From Variovorax paradoxus (GTDB lineage: Bacteria; Pseudomonadota; Gammaproteobacteria; Burkholderiales; Burkholderiaceae_C), in assembly GCF_024734665.1 (NCBI RefSeq), contig NZ_CP102931.1:1486001-1550000 (forward strand): a stretch of DNA of 64,000 nt. The letters are read 5' to 3'. Under the pieces are notes generated by a model, which saw only the letters and a program-made list of their open reading frames with translations, searched no databases and was not told where the DNA came from. Of the stretch, positions 51,727-61,985 are shown one piece after another. The position numbers and the translations under genes were made by a program. The first letter of the stretch is position 1. Each line of letters starts with the position of its first letter.

Positions 51727-51755
51727 CCCGCGCGTTGCGCGGGTTTTCTTTTTTG
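51727..51755 (+). terminator. Rho-independent terminator after the nucleoside transporter
   Basis: The perfect 7-bp stem CCCGCGC (51727-51733) / GCGCGGG (51737-51743) with a 3-base loop is followed by TTTTCTTTTTT. It closes the ABC transporter operon and separates it from the TOMM cluster. Confidence 0.85.
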
Positions 51756-51891: not shown

Positions 51892-54800
51892 ATGCAGGAT
51901 GCCGTCACCAACCCCACGCACGCAGTGTCGCAATCATCATTGCCGAATCCGTTGGAGATTCCGGGCTACGAGTTGCTGGAGGAGCTAGGCGCCGGCGGCT
52001 ATGGCACCGTGTATCGCGCGCTGCAGAAGAACACGGGCACCGTGGTCGCAATCAAGGTCGTGAAGCTGCAGGTCGGCAGCCAGCGCGTTGCACGTTTTCA
52101 CCGCGAGACGAAGCTCTGCGCCTCGCTGCACCATCCGCACATCGTCCAGTTGCTCGACAAGGGTGAGCAGGGCCCATGCGTCTATGGCGTCTTCGAGTAC
52201 GTGCCGGGCGAAACGCTCACCAGCCTGATCCGGCGCAAGGGCGCGCTGACTGCCACCGAGACCGCTCATCTGATGGCGGAAGTGCTGGACGCGCTGGACT
52301 GCGCGCACAGCGCGGGCATCGTGCACCGCGACCTGAAGCCCGACAACGTGATGGTCACCTTCACCGGCGCCGTCCCGCATGCGAAGGTGCTCGACTTCGG
52401 CATCAGCACCGTCATTCCCTCGAACAGGGGCGCCGAGTTTCCTACGCTCACGATGACCGACGAGTCTCTGGGCACGCCGGCCTACAGCGCGCCTGAGCAA
52501 CTGCGCGGCGAGCCGCCCGGCGTCAAGTCAGATATCTACGCTTGGGGCCTGATGTTCATCGAGTGCCTGACGGGCGTGCCCGCCATTCGCGGCGCATCGG
52601 CGGCAGAAATTCTTCACCAGCAACTGAGCCCGCAAGAGGTGCCTCTGCCGGCGGAAATCGCCAGCCATCCGGTGGCCTCCGTGCTGCGCCAGGCATTGCG
52701 CAAGAAGGCGGCCGACCGCAGCGATTCAGCAGCCACGCTGCTGGCCGAACTCGGGCGCCTGCGGCTTGACGATCTGGTGGGCGTGCTGCGATCGGCGAAG
52801 CAGGCGCAAGACGAAGCTCTCAGTCACACCGTGGTCACCACGCGCGGCTTTTCCGAAAAGCGGCAGCTCACCGTGCTGTGCTGCAGCGTCTCCGTCTGGC
52901 CGGACGCCGGCGCGGACGAAGAGGGCATCGACGACGCCTTGCCCTCCGACATCGAAAACCTGGAGCTGCTGCAGCGCAACGAGCTCACCCTGTTCGCGGA
53001 GACCGCCACGCGGCGCGGCGGATTGCTGGCCGGCACGCTGGGCGACCGGATGATCGTGCTCTTCGGCTATCCGCACGCCAGCGACACCGATGCGCGGCAG
53101 GCCGGCATGACGGCGCTGGAGCTGATCGAGCTGAGCCGCCAGCGCTCGGCTGCCATCGAGCAGGCGCACGGCGTGCACCTGGGCATTCGCATGGGCATGC
53201 ACACCGGCATGGCGGTGGTGGCCGCCGGAGAAATTCCGTCGGGCCATGCCGTCAACGTTGCGGTGCGGCTCGAGGGCGTGGCCGATACCGGCACGCTGCT
53301 GGCAAGCGAAAGCAGCTACCGGCTGCTGGGCCGCCATGCGCGCTTCGACAAGGCCGGCAACGTGACCCTGCCGGGGCAGTCCGGCGGCATCCAGACCTAT
53401 CGCCTGGGCGGTGAACAGCAGGCGCCAGCGCCGCATGGATCCGTGGAGCAGGCACTGCACAACGCGTGCATCGGACGCGAGGCAGAACTGCAACAGCTGC
53501 GCGCCGCATGGGCGCAGGCCCGCCAAGGCCACGGCGGCGCGGTGTGGGTCCGGGGCGAGCCCGGCATCGGCAAGTCTTGTCTCGCCGACGTGCTGCGCGA
53601 GCAGGTGGCGCAAGAAGGCTGGCAGACCGTCAGCGCGCAGTGCCAGCCCGAAAACCAGAACAACGCGCTGACACCGTTCCTGACGCTGCTGCGCCAGCGC
53701 CTCGAAGCCGCACCGGATGCAGCCACGCCCGACGCCCGGCGCGAGCGGCTGCGCGAGGCCCTGCAGGCCGCCGGCTGCGACGCCGAAGCGGTGCTGCCGA
53801 TCTTCTGCGCTTGGCTGTCTCTCCCACTGGGCGATCGCGCACCCAGCCAGGTGTCTCCCGCGATGCAGAAGGGATTGCTGCTGCAGTCGACCGCACAGTG
53901 GCTGCTGCACATGGCCGAGGCGGCGCCGCTGCTGCTCCTGCTCGAAGACGTGCACTGGGCCGACCCCACGAGCATCGAGTTCGTCGAGCAGCTGGTTGCC
54001 CAGCTGCCGCAGCAGCGCGTGCTGCTGGTGCTGACCGCGCGGCCCGAATGGGTGAAGCCGACGGCGCTGCAGGCCGAGTGCATCGAGGTGCGTCGGCTCG
54101 AAGACGCGCAGGCCGCCGAACTGGCCCGGCAGGCGCTGGCGCCAAGAGTCGCCGCGCAGCAGGTGATCGACAACGTGGTCGCGCGCACCGACGGCGTGCC
54201 GCTGTTCATCCAGGAAATGGCGCGCATGCTGCTCGACGCCTACCTGGTGGAACAAGAGGGCGTCTGGGTCTTCAAGGACACGGCCCAGCCGGCTGCCATT
54301 CCGGTCACGCTGCGCGACTCTCTGGTCAGCCGCTTCGACCGGCTGGGCTCCGTCAAGGGCCTGCTGCAACTGGCAGCCACCATTGGGCGGCAGTTCGATG
54401 CCGAATTGCTGTGCGCCTGTTCGGGCAAGTCGCCCGAAGCGATGGACAAGGACATGGCCGTGCTGCTCGACGCGGGGCTCGTGGCCCCGGCCGGACTGCC
54501 GGGCGCTTTCATCTTCCGCCACGCGCTGATTCGCGACACCGCCTACGAATGCATGCTCGACGCGCAGCGCCGGCAGCAGCACCGCAACGTCGCGCAGACG
54601 CTGCTGAGCAGCCAGCCGCAGCGCGTGGCGAGCGAGCCGGGCAGCGTGGCCCAGCACTGGGCCGATGCGGGCGAGCACGCGGAGGCCGTTGCGCTGGCCG
54701 TGCGGCAGCTGCTCATTACCCAGCACCGCTCGCTGAACGACGAAACCATCGCCTATGCCCAGCACATCGACGGCTGGATGGCGCACCTGGACAGCGCCGC

Positions 54801-55938
54801 GCAGCGCGAGGCGCGGCTCGACGTGAACAGCTACGTCACGCAGGCCATGATGAACAAGTACGGCTGGGCGCATGCGCAGGTGGTGGACCGCATCGCCCTG
54901 TCGCAGGAGCTGCTCTCCGACGACGTGGCGCGCGAGAAGCAGGTGCAGCACCTGTGGACGCTGATCACCTTCCACCACGTCGCGAGCAACCGCGCCGAGG
55001 TGCAGCAGCTGAGCAACCGGCTGCTCGACCACGCCACCCAGCAGCAGGACGAGGGCGTGTTCGTCGCGGCGCAAACGTACCTCGGGCTCGCGCACTATTC
55101 AGACGGCTATTTCGAGCGCGCCGAGCAATCGCTGACGGACGGCATCGAGCGCTACAGCCCCGAGGCGCACGCGCACCATGCCGCCTACTTCGGCTTCGAC
55201 ACCCGCGTGTGGGCGACCACGGGGCGCGCGCTGGTGCGCTGGTTCGCGGGCCACGACGCGGCCGCGCGCGCCGACGCCACGAACGCCGTGCGCTGGGCGC
55301 GCGAGATGTCGCACATTCCGTCGCTGAGCATGGCCCTGCTGTACCAGAGCCTGGGCCATCAGGGCCGCAACGACAAGGCGCGGGCGCTGGTGAGCACGGG
55401 CGAGCTGCTCGGCATCACCGAGCGCTATGGCCTGCCGGCGTTCCAGGGCTACGCGGCAATCATTCGCTGCTGGGCCACCGGCGACGTCGACAACATCGCG
55501 CAGGCCGACGGCTGGGTGCAGGCGCTGTGGGGCATGGGCTGCCGCTATTGCCAGACCTACTACCGCGCCTTTGCCGCCGACACGCTGGCCGTCAATGGTC
55601 GCTGGGGCGAGGCGCTGGAGCGGGTCGACGAGTGCCTGCGCCTGGCGGACGAGCTCAAGGAAGGGCTCTACAGGTCCGAGCTCCATCTGCAGAAGGCCCG
55701 CTACCTGCAGGCCTCGGGCGGCGAACACGACGCAGTGGCCGAGTGCTTCTCGCAGGCCGCCAACGTGGCGCGCGAGGGTGCGAAGTACAGAACCGAATAC
55801 GAGGCCCTGGTGGCGTTGCAGGCACTGGCACCCGCCGGGCACGACGTGGCTGGACGCCTCAAGGAGCTGGCCGACCTGCGGCCGGAACTGCCGTCGCGCA
55901 TGCCCGTGCATGCGCCTGTTTCTCGAACCATGTCTTGA
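51892..55938 (+). CDS. TOMM-system Ser/Thr kinase-cyclase-AAA-TPR fusion protein
   Basis: About 1348 residues. The order is: a Ser/Thr kinase with all key motifs (GAGGYGTVYRA near 33, Lys 55 in VAIKVVK, HRDLKPDN near 145, DFGIS near 168, APEQ); a class III nucleotide cyclase domain (about 324-505); an AAA-type ATPase with GREAELQQL, GEPGIGKS (about 555) and LLLLLEDVHWADP (about 681); then a long helical TPR-like part. This matches the TOMM kinase/cyclase family placed beside BMA_0021-type precursors. In the cyclase the first metal Asp is replaced (CCSVSV). GTG 51802 is an alternative start. The precursor gene follows after 18 bp. Confidence 0.9.
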   Translation: MQDAVTNPTHAVSQSSLPNPLEIPGYELLEELGAGGYGTVYRALQKNTGTVVAIKVVKLQVGSQRVARFHRETKLCASLHHPHIVQLLDKGEQGPCVYGVFEYVPGETLTSLIRRKGALTATETAHLMAEVLDALDCAHSAGIVHRDLKPDNVMVTFTGAVPHAKVLDFGISTVIPSNRGAEFPTLTMTDESLGTPAYSAPEQLRGEPPGVKSDIYAWGLMFIECLTGVPAIRGASAAEILHQQLSPQEVPLPAEIASHPVASVLRQALRKKAADRSDSAATLLAELGRLRLDDLVGVLRSAKQAQDEALSHTVVTTRGFSEKRQLTVLCCSVSVWPDAGADEEGIDDALPSDIENLELLQRNELTLFAETATRRGGLLAGTLGDRMIVLFGYPHASDTDARQAGMTALELIELSRQRSAAIEQAHGVHLGIRMGMHTGMAVVAAGEIPSGHAVNVAVRLEGVADTGTLLASESSYRLLGRHARFDKAGNVTLPGQSGGIQTYRLGGEQQAPAPHGSVEQALHNACIGREAELQQLRAAWAQARQGHGGAVWVRGEPGIGKSCLADVLREQVAQEGWQTVSAQCQPENQNNALTPFLTLLRQRLEAAPDAATPDARRERLREALQAAGCDAEAVLPIFCAWLSLPLGDRAPSQVSPAMQKGLLLQSTAQWLLHMAEAAPLLLLLEDVHWADPTSIEFVEQLVAQLPQQRVLLVLTARPEWVKPTALQAECIEVRRLEDAQAAELARQALAPRVAAQQVIDNVVARTDGVPLFIQEMARMLLDAYLVEQEGVWVFKDTAQPAAIPVTLRDSLVSRFDRLGSVKGLLQLAATIGRQFDAELLCACSGKSPEAMDKDMAVLLDAGLVAPAGLPGAFIFRHALIRDTAYECMLDAQRRQQHRNVAQTLLSSQPQRVASEPGSVAQHWADAGEHAEAVALAVRQLLITQHRSLNDETIAYAQHIDGWMAHLDSAAQREARLDVNSYVTQAMMNKYGWAHAQVVDRIALSQELLSDDVAREKQVQHLWTLITFHHVASNRAEVQQLSNRLLDHATQQQDEGVFVAAQTYLGLAHYSDGYFERAEQSLTDGIERYSPEAHAHHAAYFGFDTRVWATTGRALVRWFAGHDAAARADATNAVRWAREMSHIPSLSMALLYQSLGHQGRNDKARALVSTGELLGITERYGLPAFQGYAAIIRCWATGDVDNIAQADGWVQALWGMGCRYCQTYYRAFAADTLAVNGRWGEALERVDECLRLADELKEGLYRSELHLQKARYLQASGGEHDAVAECFSQAANVAREGAKYRTEYEALVALQALAPAGHDVAGRLKELADLRPELPSRMPVHAPVSRTMS

Positions 55939-55956
55939 ACCAAGGATGAAGTCACC

Positions 55957-56748
55957 ATGACCTTTCAAAGCCAAGCTGCCGAACCGTTGCTCGAATTCCG
56001 TCTTGCCTACCTGCGTGGCATTGCCAAATCGTGGCAGGACGATGCCTACCGCCGCGAACTGCTCGACTCGCAGGACATCCAGCCCATGCTGCACCGCGAC
56101 TTCGGCTTGCCGACGCTGTGGCCGCAACTCGACGTGAGGCTTTTCCAGAGCCCCAATCCGGACATGCGCGCCGAATGGAAGCCGGTGCTGACCTCCGGCT
56201 GGGTCGGCCCCGACGACTCCTTCGTCATCGTGCTGCCGCAGGCGCCGTCGTCGCATGCCACGGAGGCCCTGGCCGCCTACTACCAGCTGTTCCCGAACTT
56301 CATGGGCTCCGCTGCTGCCTTCGAAGCACCCGTGCCGCCCCCCGGCATCGTGGGTGGCGCACTGCCCACCGGCCTCGGCATTCCCGGCGGCGGCGATGGT
56401 TCGCTGCTGGCGTTCGGCGGCGTGGTGCTGCGCGCGATTGCGCTCGCATGGCAGTCGCCGGAGTTCCTTTTCGACCTGACGCGCGACCCCGATACCGACA
56501 AGGCGCCCGTGCTGAGCCAATGGCTGGGCTACAACAACCCGTTCAACTTCAAGATCCTGTTCACGACCAATTCCGCCTTCACGTGGGATGCGGCAAAGGG
56601 CGAATGGAATCTGAAGAACGCCGACGGCTCGCTGATCAAGAACGGCATCCTCCTCAACTACCCGACCGCACCGGTGGAAGTGGACATGCGGCCGATCGCG
56701 CTCACCTCGTACAACAACACGGGCGACGCCTATCCCTTCACCTGCTGA
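55957..56748 (+). CDS. TOMM precursor with duplicated nitrile-hydratase-like leader
   Basis: 263 residues. Two related segments, about residues 11-64 (LLEFRLAYLRGIAKSWQ) and 150-202 (LLAFGGVVLRAIALAWQ), look like tandem NHLP-type leader domains. Each is followed by a beta-rich part (VIVLPQAP and ILLNYPTAP). A Gly/Pro-rich linker (PPPGIVGGALP, GIPGGGDGS) joins them. The C-terminal 30 residues are poor in charged residues and end in YPFTC, with a single terminal Cys plus Ser/Thr as possible cyclisation sites. It matches the BMA_0021/BMA_0022 precursor type. AAGGA precedes ATG 55957. It sits between the kinase and the modifying enzymes. Confidence 0.82.
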   Translation: MTFQSQAAEPLLEFRLAYLRGIAKSWQDDAYRRELLDSQDIQPMLHRDFGLPTLWPQLDVRLFQSPNPDMRAEWKPVLTSGWVGPDDSFVIVLPQAPSSHATEALAAYYQLFPNFMGSAAAFEAPVPPPGIVGGALPTGLGIPGGGDGSLLAFGGVVLRAIALAWQSPEFLFDLTRDPDTDKAPVLSQWLGYNNPFNFKILFTTNSAFTWDAAKGEWNLKNADGSLIKNGILLNYPTAPVEVDMRPIALTSYNNTGDAYPFTC

Positions 56749-56842
56749 GTCCGCTGCCGAACAGGGGCAGGCCACGGGCGCGCTGCAAGGCGCCTCGGCC
56801 ACGCTCCTGCTGACGCTGGCCGCGCGTGCCGACTCCGGCAGC

Positions 56843-57595
56843 GTGGCCGATGCGTCGGTGTTTTCCGATCCCGAGGCGCGACGCATCGCGGCGTCGCTGC
56901 CCTTCGATCTGTCGGCCTATGCGACGGACGCGGCATTCGTCAGGAGTGTGGTCCTGCGTGCCGCACTGTTCGACCGCTATGCGGCCGAGTTCCTCGCGGC
57001 CCATCCGACCGGCCTGTGCATCACGTTGGGCGCGGGGCTGTGCACCCGGCGCAGCCGCCTCGGAGCCGCCGTGACTGCGGATTCCCGTTGGCTGAACGTC
57101 GATCTGCCCGAGGCCATCAGCCTGCGGGCGCAACACATTGCACGCCATGAGGGCGAGAGCGATCTCGCATGCTCGGTGCTCGACGACGCGTGGTTCGACG
57201 CCGCCGGGCTGCCCGGCGAGCGGCCCGTGCTCGCGATGCTGGAAGGCGTCTGCCCCTACCTGCCGCAGGCGCCGCTGGAGGCGCTTCTGCGCCGGTTGGC
57301 CGGGCGCTTCGAACACAGCGCGACGCCATGTGTCGTCGTGCTCGACCACGTGCATCCGATGTTCGCGCGCATGCCCATGGAAGTGGGCGGCATGCGGTTG
57401 CCAGTGGTGTCGGGCTTCGAGGATGGCGCCCGCATCGCAGGCCTGCATCCGTCGATGCGGGTGCTGTCCGAAGACCATATCTACGCGCAATTCTCGGAAC
57501 AGCATCGGCTGTTCGAGGCGGCGTTCCGGGCCACGACAGGCGCTTGGCCCTATGGCGTCGTGCGCCTCGCGCTGGGCCTGAAAGACGATGAGTAG
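56843..57595 (+). CDS. class I SAM-dependent methyltransferase (leucine carboxyl methyltransferase-like)
   Basis: 250 residues from the only standard start in frame, GTG 56843. Motifs of the PpmA/LCMT-like family are VFSDPEARRI, CITLGAGLCTR (SAM loop), NVDLPEAI and LEGVCPYLP. It may methylate the modified peptide or a carboxylate. The true N-terminus is probably longer: in-frame codons upstream encode ALQGASATLLLTLAARA, a conserved part of the family, yet no ATG/GTG/TTG exists back to at least 56702. A rare start codon, a frameshift with the precursor gene or a sequence error are possible. It overlaps the YcaO gene by 8 bp. Confidence 0.82.
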   Translation: MADASVFSDPEARRIAASLPFDLSAYATDAAFVRSVVLRAALFDRYAAEFLAAHPTGLCITLGAGLCTRRSRLGAAVTADSRWLNVDLPEAISLRAQHIARHEGESDLACSVLDDAWFDAAGLPGERPVLAMLEGVCPYLPQAPLEALLRRLAGRFEHSATPCVVVLDHVHPMFARMPMEVGGMRLPVVSGFEDGARIAGLHPSMRVLSEDHIYAQFSEQHRLFEAAFRATTGAWPYGVVRLALGLKDDE

Positions 57596-59747
57596 CGCTG
57601 CGGCGGCGCCGGATTTCTTCGGCGAGGTTTTTCGTTGGCACGACAAGTACCTGCCGCCGGTGGTGTTGCAGGACCGCCTGCTGCTGCCCAGCGAGAACGA
57701 CTTGCTGGTGCTCGGCTCGCCGGGCGTCATGGCCGTCGAACGCGTGCTGCGCGAGGGCGTCAGCCTCGCCACGTATTGCCGGAACGAAGGCGCGGCCGCG
57801 CTGCTCGCGCAGATGCTGCATGCGCTCGAAGCATTGACGCGCCAGGGGCTCGTGCGACCTGTTGCGATGGACGGCGGCGAGCCGTACCTCGTGCCTGATT
57901 TTTCTGCGGTGCATGTGCGCACGGCCCTCTCCGCACATGTGGATGTCATCGCGCTGTCGAACGCCATGCGCGACGACGTGGCAAGCGGCTGGGCGCAGGC
58001 GTTCGCCGACACCAGCCTCGCCCTCGTTTTTTGCGACGACTACCTCGACCCCCGGCTCGGCACCATCGATGCGCAGCAGCGCGCCTCGGGGCGTCCCTGG
58101 CTGCTGGTCAAGCCCACCGGCGAACAGGCCATGGTCGGCCCATTCTTCAGGCTGGGCGCGGCAACGGTCGGCCCCTGCTGGCATTGCCTCGCGCACCGCT
58201 GGCTCAGGAACCGGCCGGCGCGCGCCTGGTGGCAGGCGCGGCATGGCATCCCGGGCAGCGGCCTGCCGGTGCGGGCAGGCGACCGGCTCGTCGCCGAACG
58301 CCTCGACCAGTTGCTGCCCATCGCGCGGCAAATCGCCACGCACGCGGACGCGCAGGTGCGCACGCTTGATTCGCCGCAGCCGCATTCCGTCGCTGCCCGC
58401 CCCCAGTGCCCGCACTGCGGAACGCCGGGGCTCGTGGCGCAGCGGCAACGCGAGCGCATCACGCTGGCGCCAGGTCTGCCCATTGGCCGGCGCGATGGCG
58501 GCTGGCGCACGGTGCCGGCCTCGGCCACGGTGGAGCGGCTGGCGCCACACGTCAGCCCGCTGTGCGGCGTGATCGCGCAGATCGCGCCGCTGAACGCCGA
58601 GTCCGAGGGCGCGCTGACGGTCTATCGCAGCGAAATCTTCAGGACGCCGCCGCCCGGCGACGATCTTTTGCCCGGCGCGCTGACCCAGATCTGCCTCGGC
58701 AAGGGCATGTCGATGGACCAGTCCCGCGCCAGCGCGCTGTGCGAGGCGGTCGAACGCTATGCCGCCTTCCATCAGGGCGACGAAGCCTCGGTCGTGGCCT
58801 TCGCCGACGACCTCGATGCGCGCTGCATCCAGCCGCAGGCGCTGGCGCTCTTCAGCGACCGGCAACGCGAGCGATTCGACACGGCGCACAAGCCCCCGCA
58901 TGCCGTGGCGTCGTCCGTGTCGTCCGGCCCCGCGTGGTGGACGCCTGCCTGGTCGCTCACGGCCGATGAACGCTGTTACCTGCCGCTGGCCTTCTGCTTC
59001 GCCCATGCGCCGGCGCAAAGCCAGCGCCACGTCAGCTGGACATCGAACGGCTGCGCTGCTGGAAACACGCGCGAGGAAGCCATCCTGCAGGGCTTTCTCG
59101 AACTGGTGGAGCGCGATGCCGCCGCCATCTGGTGGTACGGCGAAGTTCCCAGGCCGGCCATCGACCTTGGCGGCCTGTCCGACGAAATCCGCCAGCGCGT
59201 CGAGCGCACCTGCGGCCCGCAATGGGAGCGCTGGGTGCTCGACATCACCCACGATTTCGGCATTCCGGTGGCGGTTGCCATCGGCCGGCATCTGCAAACG
59301 GGCGCGTGGGCCATCGGCTTCGGCTGCAGCCCCGATCGCGCGCTGGCCTGCGAGCGCGCGCTCACCGAAATGAGCCAGCTGATCGCGGCGGGCAAGACCT
59401 TCGCGATGCAGCGTGCCGCCGGGGAAGCCAGGGAAGAAGGCCCGCCGCGCTTTCTCATGCCGTCGGGCGCGGGCAACGTCGCGCCGACGCCGGCCGCGCG
59501 CACGGACATCGCCGAGGAGATCCGGCGCTGCGTTGCCATTGCCGCCGCGCTCGGCCTGGAAACCATCGTCCTGGACCACACGCGCCCCGACATTCCCCTG
59601 CACACTGTGAAGGTGGTCGTGCCGGGGCTGTGCCACATCTGGCCTGAGCTGGGCAATCCGCGTCTGTACCGCGTTCCAGTCGCCATGGGATGGCGCGACA
59701 CTCCGGTGTGCGAAAGCGACCTGAATCCGCAGGCGCTGTACGTCTGA
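57588..59747 (+). CDS. fused TOMM cyclodehydratase (E1-like C domain plus YcaO D domain)
   Basis: 719 residues. The N-terminal C domain is E1-like and has the structural-zinc pairs GPCWHCLAHRW (about 195-200) and CPHCG (274-277). The C-terminal YcaO domain has the ATP-binding segments KGMSMDQSRASALCEAVERYA (in part, about 371) and NGCAAGNTREEAILQGFLELVERD (about 486). Such C-D fusions bind the leader and turn Cys, Ser or Thr of the core peptide into azolines using ATP. The C-terminus is NPQALYV, not the PxPxP tail seen in many TOMM YcaO proteins. Start ATG 57588 overlaps the methyltransferase end. No FMN dehydrogenase that would form azoles is present. Confidence 0.92.
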   Translation: MSSAAAAPDFFGEVFRWHDKYLPPVVLQDRLLLPSENDLLVLGSPGVMAVERVLREGVSLATYCRNEGAAALLAQMLHALEALTRQGLVRPVAMDGGEPYLVPDFSAVHVRTALSAHVDVIALSNAMRDDVASGWAQAFADTSLALVFCDDYLDPRLGTIDAQQRASGRPWLLVKPTGEQAMVGPFFRLGAATVGPCWHCLAHRWLRNRPARAWWQARHGIPGSGLPVRAGDRLVAERLDQLLPIARQIATHADAQVRTLDSPQPHSVAARPQCPHCGTPGLVAQRQRERITLAPGLPIGRRDGGWRTVPASATVERLAPHVSPLCGVIAQIAPLNAESEGALTVYRSEIFRTPPPGDDLLPGALTQICLGKGMSMDQSRASALCEAVERYAAFHQGDEASVVAFADDLDARCIQPQALALFSDRQRERFDTAHKPPHAVASSVSSGPAWWTPAWSLTADERCYLPLAFCFAHAPAQSQRHVSWTSNGCAAGNTREEAILQGFLELVERDAAAIWWYGEVPRPAIDLGGLSDEIRQRVERTCGPQWERWVLDITHDFGIPVAVAIGRHLQTGAWAIGFGCSPDRALACERALTEMSQLIAAGKTFAMQRAAGEAREEGPPRFLMPSGAGNVAPTPAARTDIAEEIRRCVAIAAALGLETIVLDHTRPDIPLHTVKVVVPGLCHIWPELGNPRLYRVPVAMGWRDTPVCESDLNPQALYV

Positions 59748-59786
59748 TACGGTCCGATTTCAAGAGAAGGAGAAAAGGGAAAGCCG

Positions 59787-60731
59787 ATGGCCATTTTCAG
59801 GAACAAGCTCGACGAGCGCGCCATCATGCTGCGACCCGTGCACGCCTTCGGCCGCCGCGCCTCGGCGTGCCAGACGGTGCTGAAGGCGCCGGATGTGTCG
59901 CAGGTCCATGCGATGGTGCGGTGGAACAGGCACACCTGGGAAATCGTCGACCAGAGCCGCAATGGCACCACCGTGAACGGCGAACGCCTGCCCAGCGGCC
60001 GCTGGACTGCCTTGCCCGTGGGCGCCGAAGTCCGCATGGGCGTAGGCGATGAAACGGCCTGGACCGTGGTCGACCTGGCACCGCCGGTCACCTGCCTTTT
60101 CCCGGTCGATGGAAGCAGTGCCCCGCTGGCGCTGGGCCTGCGCGAAAACCTGCTGCCGGACGAGCACCAGCCCGAAGTGAACGTGTATTTCCAGGACGGC
60201 AGATGGATGCTCGAGCACATCGACGGCATCGAGCCCCTGAGCGACGGCGCCATGGTCCGCACCGCGGTTCGCACCTGGGAGTTCGTGCTGTGCGACGACC
60301 TCGCGTTCACTTCCGAGAACCCGATCACGCCGTCGGCGCCGGGCTCTGCATCGGCGGATGTCGCGCTGCACTTCAACGTCAGCCAGAACGAGGAGCACAC
60401 GAGCCTGAGCCTGGTTGCGGAGGGCAAGTCGGTGTCGCTCGGCGAACGCATCCATCACTACACCCTCGTCACGCTCGCGCGCGTGCGCCAGAAAGACGCG
60501 CAAAGAGGAATCGCGCCGCAGAGCCAGGGCTGGATCGGGCTGGACGAACTGTCGCGCATGCTGGGCGTGGAGCCCTCGTACGTGAACATCCAGATCTTTC
60601 GCGCCAAGCACCAGATCCTCAATGCATTGCCGCCCCATCTGGCCGAGCCGCCGCTGGTCGAGCGGCGTCGCGGGACCGTGCGGCTGGGCAACTATCCCTT
60701 CGAGATCCAGGGCGGTGCACAACCTGTGTAA
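59787..60731 (+). CDS. FHA-domain protein with C-terminal winged-helix domain
   Basis: 314 residues. The N-terminal FHA fold keeps the phosphothreonine-binding residues: FGRRAS, the VSQVHA Ser/His pair and SRNGTTVNG. A middle beta-rich part follows. The C-terminal 90 residues (GWIGLDELSRMLGVEPSYVN, then an IFRAK helix and LVERRRGTVRLG wing) look like a DNA-binding or protein-binding winged helix. The Ser/Thr kinase of the same operon is the obvious partner. AAGGGAAAG precedes the ATG, 39 bp behind the YcaO gene. Confidence 0.82.
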   Translation: MAIFRNKLDERAIMLRPVHAFGRRASACQTVLKAPDVSQVHAMVRWNRHTWEIVDQSRNGTTVNGERLPSGRWTALPVGAEVRMGVGDETAWTVVDLAPPVTCLFPVDGSSAPLALGLRENLLPDEHQPEVNVYFQDGRWMLEHIDGIEPLSDGAMVRTAVRTWEFVLCDDLAFTSENPITPSAPGSASADVALHFNVSQNEEHTSLSLVAEGKSVSLGERIHHYTLVTLARVRQKDAQRGIAPQSQGWIGLDELSRMLGVEPSYVNIQIFRAKHQILNALPPHLAEPPLVERRRGTVRLGNYPFEIQGGAQPV

Positions 60732-60835
60732 TCGTCTGTAATTCCATTCGATCCCTGCGCTCCCTAGAGTGACGTCAAGTTCGGTGCCGCCGTCGCGGCA
60801 TGAACTGGCTGATCAACCACTTCCGGGAAGTTGTC

Positions 60836-61492
60836 ATGGGAATGATCTATTCCGTCACGGTCAACAACCATGCGAGCCATTCGGCTTATTTCATGGTGTT
60901 CCAGAACGACCCGACGCAATGGGCGCCGAATGCCCTGTCGCTGGCCTGGTTCGCCAAGTTCTCGAACCCGAGCCCGACTTCGCGCGTCAAGTTCCAGTGG
61001 AGCATCGACACCGGCTTCTCCTGGGCCGAAACGGGCGAGCTGCAGCCCGGCATCCAGTTCATCGCCACTGAAACCTACGACCCCAGCGGCCTGAACAACA
61101 AGATCACGCTGGACTACAACGGCGCCTACCGGTTCGTGAACCCCACCCAGGGGCCCGACCAATCCCGCTTCTATCTCGCCGAATCGCCCAACATCCCGCT
61201 CAGGTCCGCGGCCGCCGTGGGCGTGACCATGGGGGGCAGCACGGTGTATGCGGCGCAGGCGCGCCCCAATCAGAACCTGGCCTTCTCGCCGCGTCCCAAG
61301 TACTTCATCGCCTACGGTGACTACGAGGAAGGCGGCGTGATCGACGTCAGCACGGTCAACAACCCGCTGGAGCTGCCATTCCCGGCGGGCGTCTACGCGT
61401 TGACCACCACGCTGAACGCAGACGGTACCTGGGACCAGCCGGAGAGCCTGGCCCATTCGAACGCGAGCCGCCTGCGACTGCTCGCGGCCTGA
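60836..61492 (+). CDS. RhiA-like protein
   Basis: 218 residues from ATG 60836, preceded by GGGAAG with 5-base spacing; the in-frame ATG 60800 is less likely. The sequence is beta-rich with the pattern MIYSVTVNNHASHSAYFMVF, LSLAWFAKFSNPSPTSRVKF, WSIDTGFSWAETGELQPGI and PFPAGVYALTTTLN, which I recognise as the RhiA type, known as an abundant rhizosphere-induced protein of Rhizobium. The biochemical role is unknown. It lacks a signal peptide. It follows the FHA gene after 104 bp. Confidence 0.6.
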   Translation: MGMIYSVTVNNHASHSAYFMVFQNDPTQWAPNALSLAWFAKFSNPSPTSRVKFQWSIDTGFSWAETGELQPGIQFIATETYDPSGLNNKITLDYNGAYRFVNPTQGPDQSRFYLAESPNIPLRSAAAVGVTMGGSTVYAAQARPNQNLAFSPRPKYFIAYGDYEEGGVIDVSTVNNPLELPFPAGVYALTTTLNADGTWDQPESLAHSNASRLRLLAA

Positions 61493-61540
61493 ACTTCCAA
61501 GCCTGTCACACAACGTGCGCCTCCGCCGAGGATGACGACC

Positions 61541-61639
61541 ATGAGAAAGCCACGCCATGTTGCAATACCCCATGCCGCTGAGGCAGCCATCACCGCTGAA
61601 GTTCCGGAGTCCGGCGATGCACTCGCAAACCGCCGTTGA
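61541..61639 (+). CDS. 32-residue small ORF
   Basis: ATG 61541 has GAGG at 61528-61531 with suitable spacing. The peptide begins MRKPRHVAIPHAAEAAI and ends ALANRR. It overlaps, in another frame, the start of the longer ORF at 61557. Its stop at 61637-61639 lies just before an internal ATG (61650) of that ORF, as in translational coupling. Coding status is uncertain and no Cys is present. Confidence 0.25.
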   Translation: MRKPRHVAIPHAAEAAITAEVPESGDALANRR

Positions 61640-61985
61640 AAGAGTCGCCATGCGGCGCGTGTTCCTGGTGCCCCCAGGTGCCCGCCCGGAGGATCCCGGC
61701 GTGGACTGCCTGCCCATGGACGAAGAGGTCTGGGAGCGCGGCTACACGCTCGTGATCGACGAAGTCAAGCGCGGCCTGCTGCAGGACTTCTGGAAGAACT
61801 ACTACGGCGCCTCCGCCGAAATGGCGATGTCCGGCGACCGGCTGATGGAGTTTCGCAAGGACATCATGGCGATCACGCCGGACTGCCTGAGCGAGCCGAC
61901 CGTGTTCCGCTTTCTCGTGCAGCTGACCCGCATGTGCGTTCGGGCGTACAGCGTGCAGGGTAGCCTGCAGGTCGTCGCTGACTGA
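61557..61985 (+). CDS. small conserved-looking protein of unknown function at the cluster end
   Basis: Up to 142 residues. The N-terminal 31 residues are rich in Pro/Ser/Arg and may not be translated; ATG 61650 (MRRVFLVPPGARPED, 111 residues) is an equally good start. The rest is mostly helical and acidic-amphipathic: EEVWERGYTLVIDEVKRG, EFRKDIMAITPDC, FRFLVQLTRMCVRAY. No signal peptide or known motif. Same direction as the TOMM genes, 64 bp behind the RhiA-like gene, so it may belong to the cluster. Confidence 0.55.
   Translation: MLQYPMPLRQPSPLKFRSPAMHSQTAVERVAMRRVFLVPPGARPEDPGVDCLPMDEEVWERGYTLVIDEVKRGLLQDFWKNYYGASAEMAMSGDRLMEFRKDIMAITPDCLSEPTVFRFLVQLTRMCVRAYSVQGSLQVVAD

Follow-up and report, generated by a model that had tools for sequence, protein, structure and literature searches.

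Why should an operon that appears to modify the tail of a folded protein begin with a large Ser/Thr kinase and also encode a phosphate-reading FHA protein? The question is raised by a stretch of 64,000 nucleotides from Variovorax paradoxus (assembly GCF_024734665.1, contig NZ_CP102931.1, positions 1,486,001 to 1,550,000; hereafter the window), in which seven open reading frames (ORFs) lie on the plus strand from 51802 or 51892 to 61985. In order, they encode a kinase fusion protein, a precursor, a methyltransferase, an RRE-YcaO cyclodehydratase, an FHA protein, a RhiA-like protein and a protein of 142 aa (Table 1). The kinase gene stands first, 18 bases before the precursor gene, and the gaps are short throughout; family models confirm the first five genes and tblastn confirms the RhiA-like gene. 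The cluster noted in a preliminary description, which had been made from the letters alone, is therefore real. The operon is conserved and of a known kind, and what is new is a signalling partner not described before, a product tail that is fixed and genes that overlap in an unusual way. Its content leads us to favour, with a probability of roughly 0.55, an operon for a ribosomally synthesized and post-translationally modified peptide (RiPP) of the thiazole/oxazole-modified microcin (TOMM) class and the NHLP-Burk type, with its own phospho-signalling control.

Cluster class, precursor and predicted product

The NHLP-Burk kind of TOMM cluster was published in 2010, with a precursor family in tandem and fused forms, a terminal Cys, an RRE-YcaO fusion and an accompanying kinase (Haft 2010, PMC2887384, in the excerpts of that paper used here). 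Judged by its family matches, the Variovorax operon is such a cluster. The kinase fusion protein scores 1336 bits against TIGR03903 (cut-off 705.75), the precursor scores 166 bits against TIGR03795 (cut-off 41) with two copies within one ORF and ends in YPFTC, and the cyclodehydratase exceeds the cut-offs of TIGR03882 (79.6 bits; 36.9) and TIGR03604 (224 bits; 219). Together with PF02624 these matches bear out the fused E1-like/YcaO cyclodehydratase of the preliminary description, and its use of the kinase and cyclodehydratase as TOMM markers agrees with the excerpted 2010 account, where a kinase accompanying TOMM genes was already published (PMC2887384). The host genome is one contig of 7.29 Mb, and the operon YcaO is its sole PF02624 match. 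The closest solved chains by sequence are LynD, TruD and MusD, over both the RRE and the catalytic parts, and the similarity to LynD reaches residue 715 of 719. A literature search for experiments on an NHLP-Burk product returned a single proteomics entry, in which a two-chain TOMM protein of B. thailandensis was up in stationary phase (log2 2.21; PMC12322963, in the extract seen), and it returned no paper linking an FHA protein or a methyltransferase to the family; the family is also named in a tree legend in the extract of PMC4513790.

The precursor had been called nitrile-hydratase-like, which holds, with the correction that it is a fused two-domain duplication. It is a folded protein of 263 aa with one Cys, and its two domains align with each other (hhalign, 98.8%), from which it reads as an internal duplication of a nitrile-hydratase-like domain in two fused copies. 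The structure model is of good quality for the most part (pLDDT 87.3), while confidence is low in the tail, which is what a flexible substrate tail would give. Searched with Foldseek as a structural test of the nitrile hydratase alpha fold, the model gave no match at E 0.001. Two synonymous codons of the gene go against a strong codon bias: Gln188 is CAA in 21/21 Variovorax rows and Ala164 is GCA in 16/21.

On alignment, the tail is fixed and is not a hypervariable core. Its consensus YNNTGxxYPF(T/S)C is the most conserved part of the precursor and has the lowest entropy among 83 proteins (of 89; proteins shorter than 240 aa or lacking the tail were set aside), and it is near-invariant in these relatives at identities as low as 35%, a conservation that may be somewhat overstated because the candidate search favours relatives sharing common short words. 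The C-terminus is YPFTC in 24 of 25 loci and FTCC in one, and counting further Burkholderia-type loci there are five with Cys-Cys ends (L069 and L091-L094). A strain-variable bacteriocin core is disfavoured by this invariance. The naming of the family by NCBI and Haft et al. would suit a modified precursor that is a conventional secreted TOMM bacteriocin, with kinase and FHA protein as ordinary production switches, but such an interpretation seems unlikely to us: the tail contrasts with NHLP cores, which are described as hypervariable (PMC4603692, as excerpted), the operon has no recognised protease gene, and none of 16 cluster genomes has an NHLM exporter above the TIGR03796 cut-off. Matches below that cut-off occur in all 16 and likewise in all 14 control genomes, and a dedicated NHLM exporter was rejected. 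As the product would have one fixed structure, a signal or a group that binds metal or acts like a cofactor is more likely than a variable bacteriocin.

We propose that the operon probably builds a small ring on the tail of a folded protein. YcaO would join the last Cys to the carbonyl of Thr with loss of water, forming a thiazoline, and the Thr may be dehydrated too, giving a methyloxazoline; the methyltransferase would then methylate the product, perhaps at the C-terminal carboxylate. The invariant tail predicts that the last Cys/Thr change in mass by -18 Da (or -36 Da), either with a further +14 Da or without it.

Kinase and FHA protein as partners of the cluster

The preliminary description had suggested comparing gene neighbourhoods across genomes, and this comparison favours the association that it had assumed. 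In a sample of 100 genomes of the genus the precursor was above cut-off in 22, and the kinase above cut-off, the FHA orthologue and the RhiA-like gene were all found in the same 21, each with the precursor. In a sample of 399 genomes of the order, the same four genomes had the precursor and the kinase above cut-off and the FHA orthologue. Five more genomes of that sample (G115, G203, G363, G400 and G159) gave precursor-like matches below cut-off, which were discarded, four being without any cluster gene in the stretch examined and G363 having YcaO only. With phylogeny ignored, Fisher p-values are about 1e-20 for the genus and about 1e-9 for the order, and chance adjacency of the cluster genes is rejected by the co-occurrence in both samples. 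Four Burkholderia-type records from a plasmid collection, reached via the FHA protein, all have the order FHA-kinase-two separate precursors-YcaO, and for the Paraburkholderia record the public annotation names the genes in this way, with FHA beside the kinase. In Variovorax and Delftia clusters the FHA gene follows YcaO directly, and in the Burkholderia-type ones it immediately precedes the kinase. In L069, which is of the latter type, the stop codon of FHA and the start codon of the kinase gene share the sequence TGATG. The FHA gene thus accompanies the kinase even though the gene order differs. In a phylum sample, 22/299 genomes had TIGR03903 matches at 1e-100, and the two above cut-off both had a TOMM cluster; in the other 20 the matches start at profile position 256 at the earliest and so miss most of the kinase part. 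These comparisons strongly support a link between kinase, FHA protein, precursor and YcaO, while some independence of the parts was seen in G062, in an FHA protein of Pseudoalteromonas and in the methyltransferase-free Burkholderia-type clusters.

Of the kinase-cyclase-AAA-TPR architecture that had been read from the first gene, the kinase and AAA parts stand. The glycine loop, VA(I/V)K, HRDLKP, DFG and APE motifs are kept in the 10 printed rows, by which the Ser/Thr kinase looks intact, and the AAA Walker motifs are kept as well. The middle domain is homologous to class III nucleotide cyclases but does not conserve the catalytic residues at what we take to be the motif positions: the first metal-binding Asp is Ser or Gly in 9/10 rows, the second Asp is lost in 2/10 and the Asn of VNxAxRL varies. 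It is probably a pseudo-cyclase, and an active cyclase is disfavoured. A search of the protein at E 0.001 brought up no TPR model, which leaves the TPR part putative. Its PADLOC matches cover the kinase part, look unspecific and were set aside. In a Burkholderia cenocepacia record (L094, 11056-15041) the kinase matches are split over two reading frames, from a broken gene or a sequence error.

In the FHA domain the residues GR, SxxH and RNGT are invariant in 8/8 rows, and in a wider alignment of 52 rows the motif residues are kept at 90% or more; taking these as the phosphothreonine motif, the binding site appears intact. The protein had been described as FHA-winged-helix, of which the FHA part is confirmed by PF00498 and the winged helix found no family match at E 10. 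The last part of the C-terminal half is a conserved helix and a basic hairpin-like sequence (NIQIFRARxQ ... LVERRRGxVRFG; 52-protein alignment), similar to winged helices on visual inspection only, and a DNA-binding domain is possible.

We infer from this combination that phosphorylation controls the product. A signal at the AAA/repeat region would switch the kinase; the FHA protein would then bind phosphothreonine, on the kinase itself or on a partner, and in turn may change transcription or enzyme activity. Alternatively, the FHA protein might be a scaffold that recruits YcaO, the methyltransferase or the precursor to the phosphorylated kinase, a post-translational control of maturation, and not regulate transcription at all, which its gene position next to YcaO (Variovorax, Delftia) or the kinase (Burkholderia-type) and the lack of a DNA-binding family match in its C-terminal half would suit. 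We consider a scaffold possible though doubtful, since the helix and basic hairpin look winged-helix-like, if by eye only, and since an orphan FHA relative in Pseudoalteromonas has no biosynthetic genes near it.

Several points weigh against the favoured reading of a TOMM operon with its own phospho-signalling control. Firstly, genome G062 (L059) has the precursor (59% identity), the methyltransferase and YcaO only, and lacks kinase, FHA and RhiA-like genes. Since the biosynthetic trio persists there, maturation may not need the kinase and FHA protein, and these could sense or use the modified protein as its receptor or effector side without controlling its making; their joint absence together with the RhiA-like gene points the same way. 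We can give this tentative alternative limited credence, as it sits less well with seven same-strand genes with short gaps and the kinase placed first, close to the precursor, a layout that fits production control too. The trio of L059 (9823-13708) lies beside MFS-transporter-like and flavin-monooxygenase-like ORFs, by eye. Secondly, a Pseudoalteromonas record (L090, 11965-12921), one of two matching records and the one examined, encodes an FHA relative 30% identical over nearly its whole length with no TOMM cluster genes within about 12 kb. Thirdly, Arg23 and Asn59 are kept at 90% or more and are not fully invariant among the 52 FHA proteins, the FHA and cyclase motif positions are those we presume to be the functional ones, and the C-terminal half of the FHA protein gave no Pfam match even at E 10. 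In each genome the searches scored just the top few candidates of a first look (2 to 5 in the kinase searches and in the order-wide FHA search), so distant copies could be missed. Lastly, release of a peptide is unexplained because the operon has no recognised protease and none of the 16 genomes a dedicated NHLM exporter above cut-off. Still, a kinase and a phosphate-reading partner almost always accompany the operon, which makes control by a signal testable. If control by the kinase and FHA protein is real, this would be a RiPP pathway with a fixed, invariant product under dedicated eukaryotic-type phospho-signalling in soil and plant bacteria.

Start of the methyltransferase gene

The third gene matches PF04072 (leucine carboxyl methyltransferase; 46.3 bits, cut-off 22.3), which confirms its earlier identification, while a start at 56843 is probably wrong. 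The gene is present in 24/25 loci, being missing from L069, and was not found in the four Burkholderia-type loci L091-L094; it goes with single-Cys precursor ends and is not found in the five Cys-Cys loci. Its frame is +1 relative to the precursor stop in 23/25 loci and in 25/27 rows of a wider table. In this frame, 5' of the first canonical start that the gene has in the window, lies the block LQGATATLLLTLAARA, which is conserved at the protein level, with pairwise differences of 178/0/1463 at codon positions 1/2/3 (25 rows). The linker from the precursor stop to the block measures 5-16 codons and is open and in frame in 25/25 rows, although its differences of 140/161/176 show no clear codon-position bias. 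GTG 56843 is therefore disfavoured as the start, and coding of the methyltransferase probably begins upstream of it, in or at the precursor tail. With the longer N-terminus the profile coverage grows and scores gain about 1 bit only; in the distant L070 a similar block is preceded by its own ATG. The block analysis was made over loci other than L059, L069 and L070, the table of Tyr259 codons over loci other than L069, and the codon-rarity ranking leaves aside the Delftia rows as well. L043 and L068 are the same Delftia contig, by which the 27 Tyr rows are 26 distinct ones and the 25 block rows are 24.

The best candidate for the start is an AUC codon (ATC 56732) within the precursor tail. Among the 23 loci with the +1 frame, the ATC at -14 is the one near-start that all share, and it is formed by the TAT of Tyr259 plus CC. 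TAT is found in 25/27 rows while the other Tyr codons of the precursor gene are nearly all TAC, and both exceptions have alternative starts, TTG in L059 and GTG at -23 in Delftia L042. In 8/25 of the +1 rows, the window included, no ATG, GTG or TTG occurs anywhere upstream of the block in the open frame. The other 17 have a canonical start there, as GTG at -20 or -23, TTG at -50, GTG inside the linker or, in L066 and L067, ATG at -128. The AUC start is supported and not proven, because TAT is also retained in rows that offer GTG at -20 or -23, where ATC is not needed, and because the codon ranks only third in rarity among 131 invariant columns, after Gln188 CAA and Ala164 GCA. With two rarer columns, TAT at Tyr259 was rejected as a unique proof. 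Noncanonical starts of this sort are described in Streptomyces, ATC for infC and GTC for sigR (PMC5472188, excerpted).

The same +1 frame and the linkers that are all open and in frame could instead reflect a remote upstream start or a +1 frameshift at TGC TGA that would fuse precursor and methyltransferase, and the canonical starts in 17/25 rows mean that AUC is not needed everywhere. We find either route improbable: 8 rows offer no canonical start upstream of the block, Tyr259 is TAT in 25/27 rows against a preference for TAC elsewhere, L059, where the methyltransferase is started separately, has TAC, and a fusion would bury the terminal Cys. The AUC start can be separated genetically from the tail in which it is embedded, as changing Tyr259 from TAT to TAC leaves the precursor protein identical. 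If it is true, the dose of methyltransferase would be tied to translation of the precursor. A more specific picture, in which the methyltransferase is AUC-started in the precursor tail, no peptide is released and a fixed, protein-anchored C-terminal azoline, perhaps a methyl ester, on the two-domain nitrile-hydratase-like protein is the working form, serving inside the cell as a sensor of redox state, metals or metabolites or as a signal read by the kinase and FHA protein, is one that we advance as rather unlikely in all its parts together.

Borders, remaining genes and comparison with known systems

The clear borders of the preliminary description are supported unequally. The hairpin upstream is weak evidence alone, as the region has 9 such sites and shuffled sequence gives an expectation of 5.3; downstream, the next gene is SnoaL-like and on the minus strand, which bears out that border. 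An ABC transport gene set lies upstream. The same ABC genes were found in 10 other loci and the SnoaL-like gene in 8 (7 common to both), and in the remaining loci neither flank was matched within the stretch examined, save a 53% substrate-binding-protein match in L067. The named loci closest to the precursor of the window are from Variovorax first and Delftia second.

The kinship of the sixth gene product with rhizobial RhiA, which had been proposed, is borne out by tblastn matches in 46 plasmid records, 40 of them Rhizobium. Among the 15 matches listed, 8 carry the annotation 'protein rhiA', and identity is 32-39% for the 14 from outside Variovorax. The gene was seen only in Variovorax clusters and was not found in the examined Delftia, L069, L070 and L091-L094 clusters. 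The seventh ORF, which was unnamed before, is shared by most examined Variovorax and Delftia clusters and matched nothing in Pfam or NCBIfam; at several loci it stands about 1 kb away from the RhiA-like gene.

Table 1. Positions of the operon genes, their domains and the upstream hairpin in the window.
Feature	Position	Strand	Basis or remark
Terminator-like hairpin, then T run	51727..51743	+	Upstream border; hairpin scan
Kinase / pseudo-cyclase (probable) / AAA / repeat-region protein	51892..55938	+	TIGR03903, 1336 bits; alternative start GTG 51802
Pkinase domain	51967-52722	+	Profile match
Cyclase-like domain	about 52849-53406	+	Profile match
AAA_16 domain	about 53467-54030	+	Profile match
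Precursor, two nitrile-hydratase-like domains and flexible C-terminal tail	55957..56748	+	TIGR03795 twice in one ORF
Precursor domain 1	about 55984-56316	+	Nitrile-hydratase-like
Precursor domain 2	about 56395-56712	+	Nitrile-hydratase-like
Precursor tail NNTGDAYPFTC	56713-56745	+	Lowest-entropy segment
PF04072 methyltransferase	56732..57595	+	ATC 56732, within the precursor tail, as proposed start; GTG 56843 as first canonical one
RRE/E1-like and YcaO cyclodehydratase	57588..59747	+	TIGR03882, TIGR03604, PF02624
FHA protein	59787..60731	+	PF00498
FHA domain	59847-60041	+	PF00498
RhiA-like protein	60800..61492	+	Orthologue matches; many begin near residue 8-13
142-aa ORF	61557..61985	+	Conserved at operon end; tblastn match in 19/25 loci

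Pairs of the PknH-EmbR type consist of a Ser/Thr kinase and a partner with an FHA domain and a putative DNA-binding part. The Variovorax FHA protein differs from such partners in having a C-terminal half without a known family and in being tied to a RiPP operon. The cyanobactin heterocyclases LynD, TruD and MusD are the closest solved relatives of the YcaO protein across RRE and YcaO, whereas in Variovorax the substrate is the folded precursor of 263 aa, which has a single Cys, and the operon has no recognised protease. For MprC, a YcaO protein that resembles LynD, action on an NHLP leader has been demonstrated (PMC12455567, in the part drawn on). MprC and MprE resemble the Variovorax pair in that such an enzyme acts on a structured nitrile-hydratase-like leader, and differ in that the MprE leaders have 81 residues with ten different substrate peptides and that an MprD oxidase is present (same extract of PMC12455567), whereas no recognised dehydrogenase gene was found in the Variovorax operon. 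Streptomyces infC and sigR offer a likeness for the methyltransferase in their conserved starts other than ATG, GTG or TTG and in the mis-calls of annotation; the Variovorax candidate would lie inside the upstream gene. The NHLP-Burk clusters share with the operon the precursor family, the fused tandem pair as in Delftia/Acidovorax, the terminal Cys, the RRE-YcaO protein and the large Ser/Thr kinase, and the excerpted description does not mention an FHA protein, a PF04072 methyltransferase or a RhiA-like gene (PMC2887384). Set beside that description, as far as the excerpts go, the Variovorax operon is further distinguished by its invariant tail and by a methyltransferase whose coding sequence appears to abut or overlap the precursor gene.

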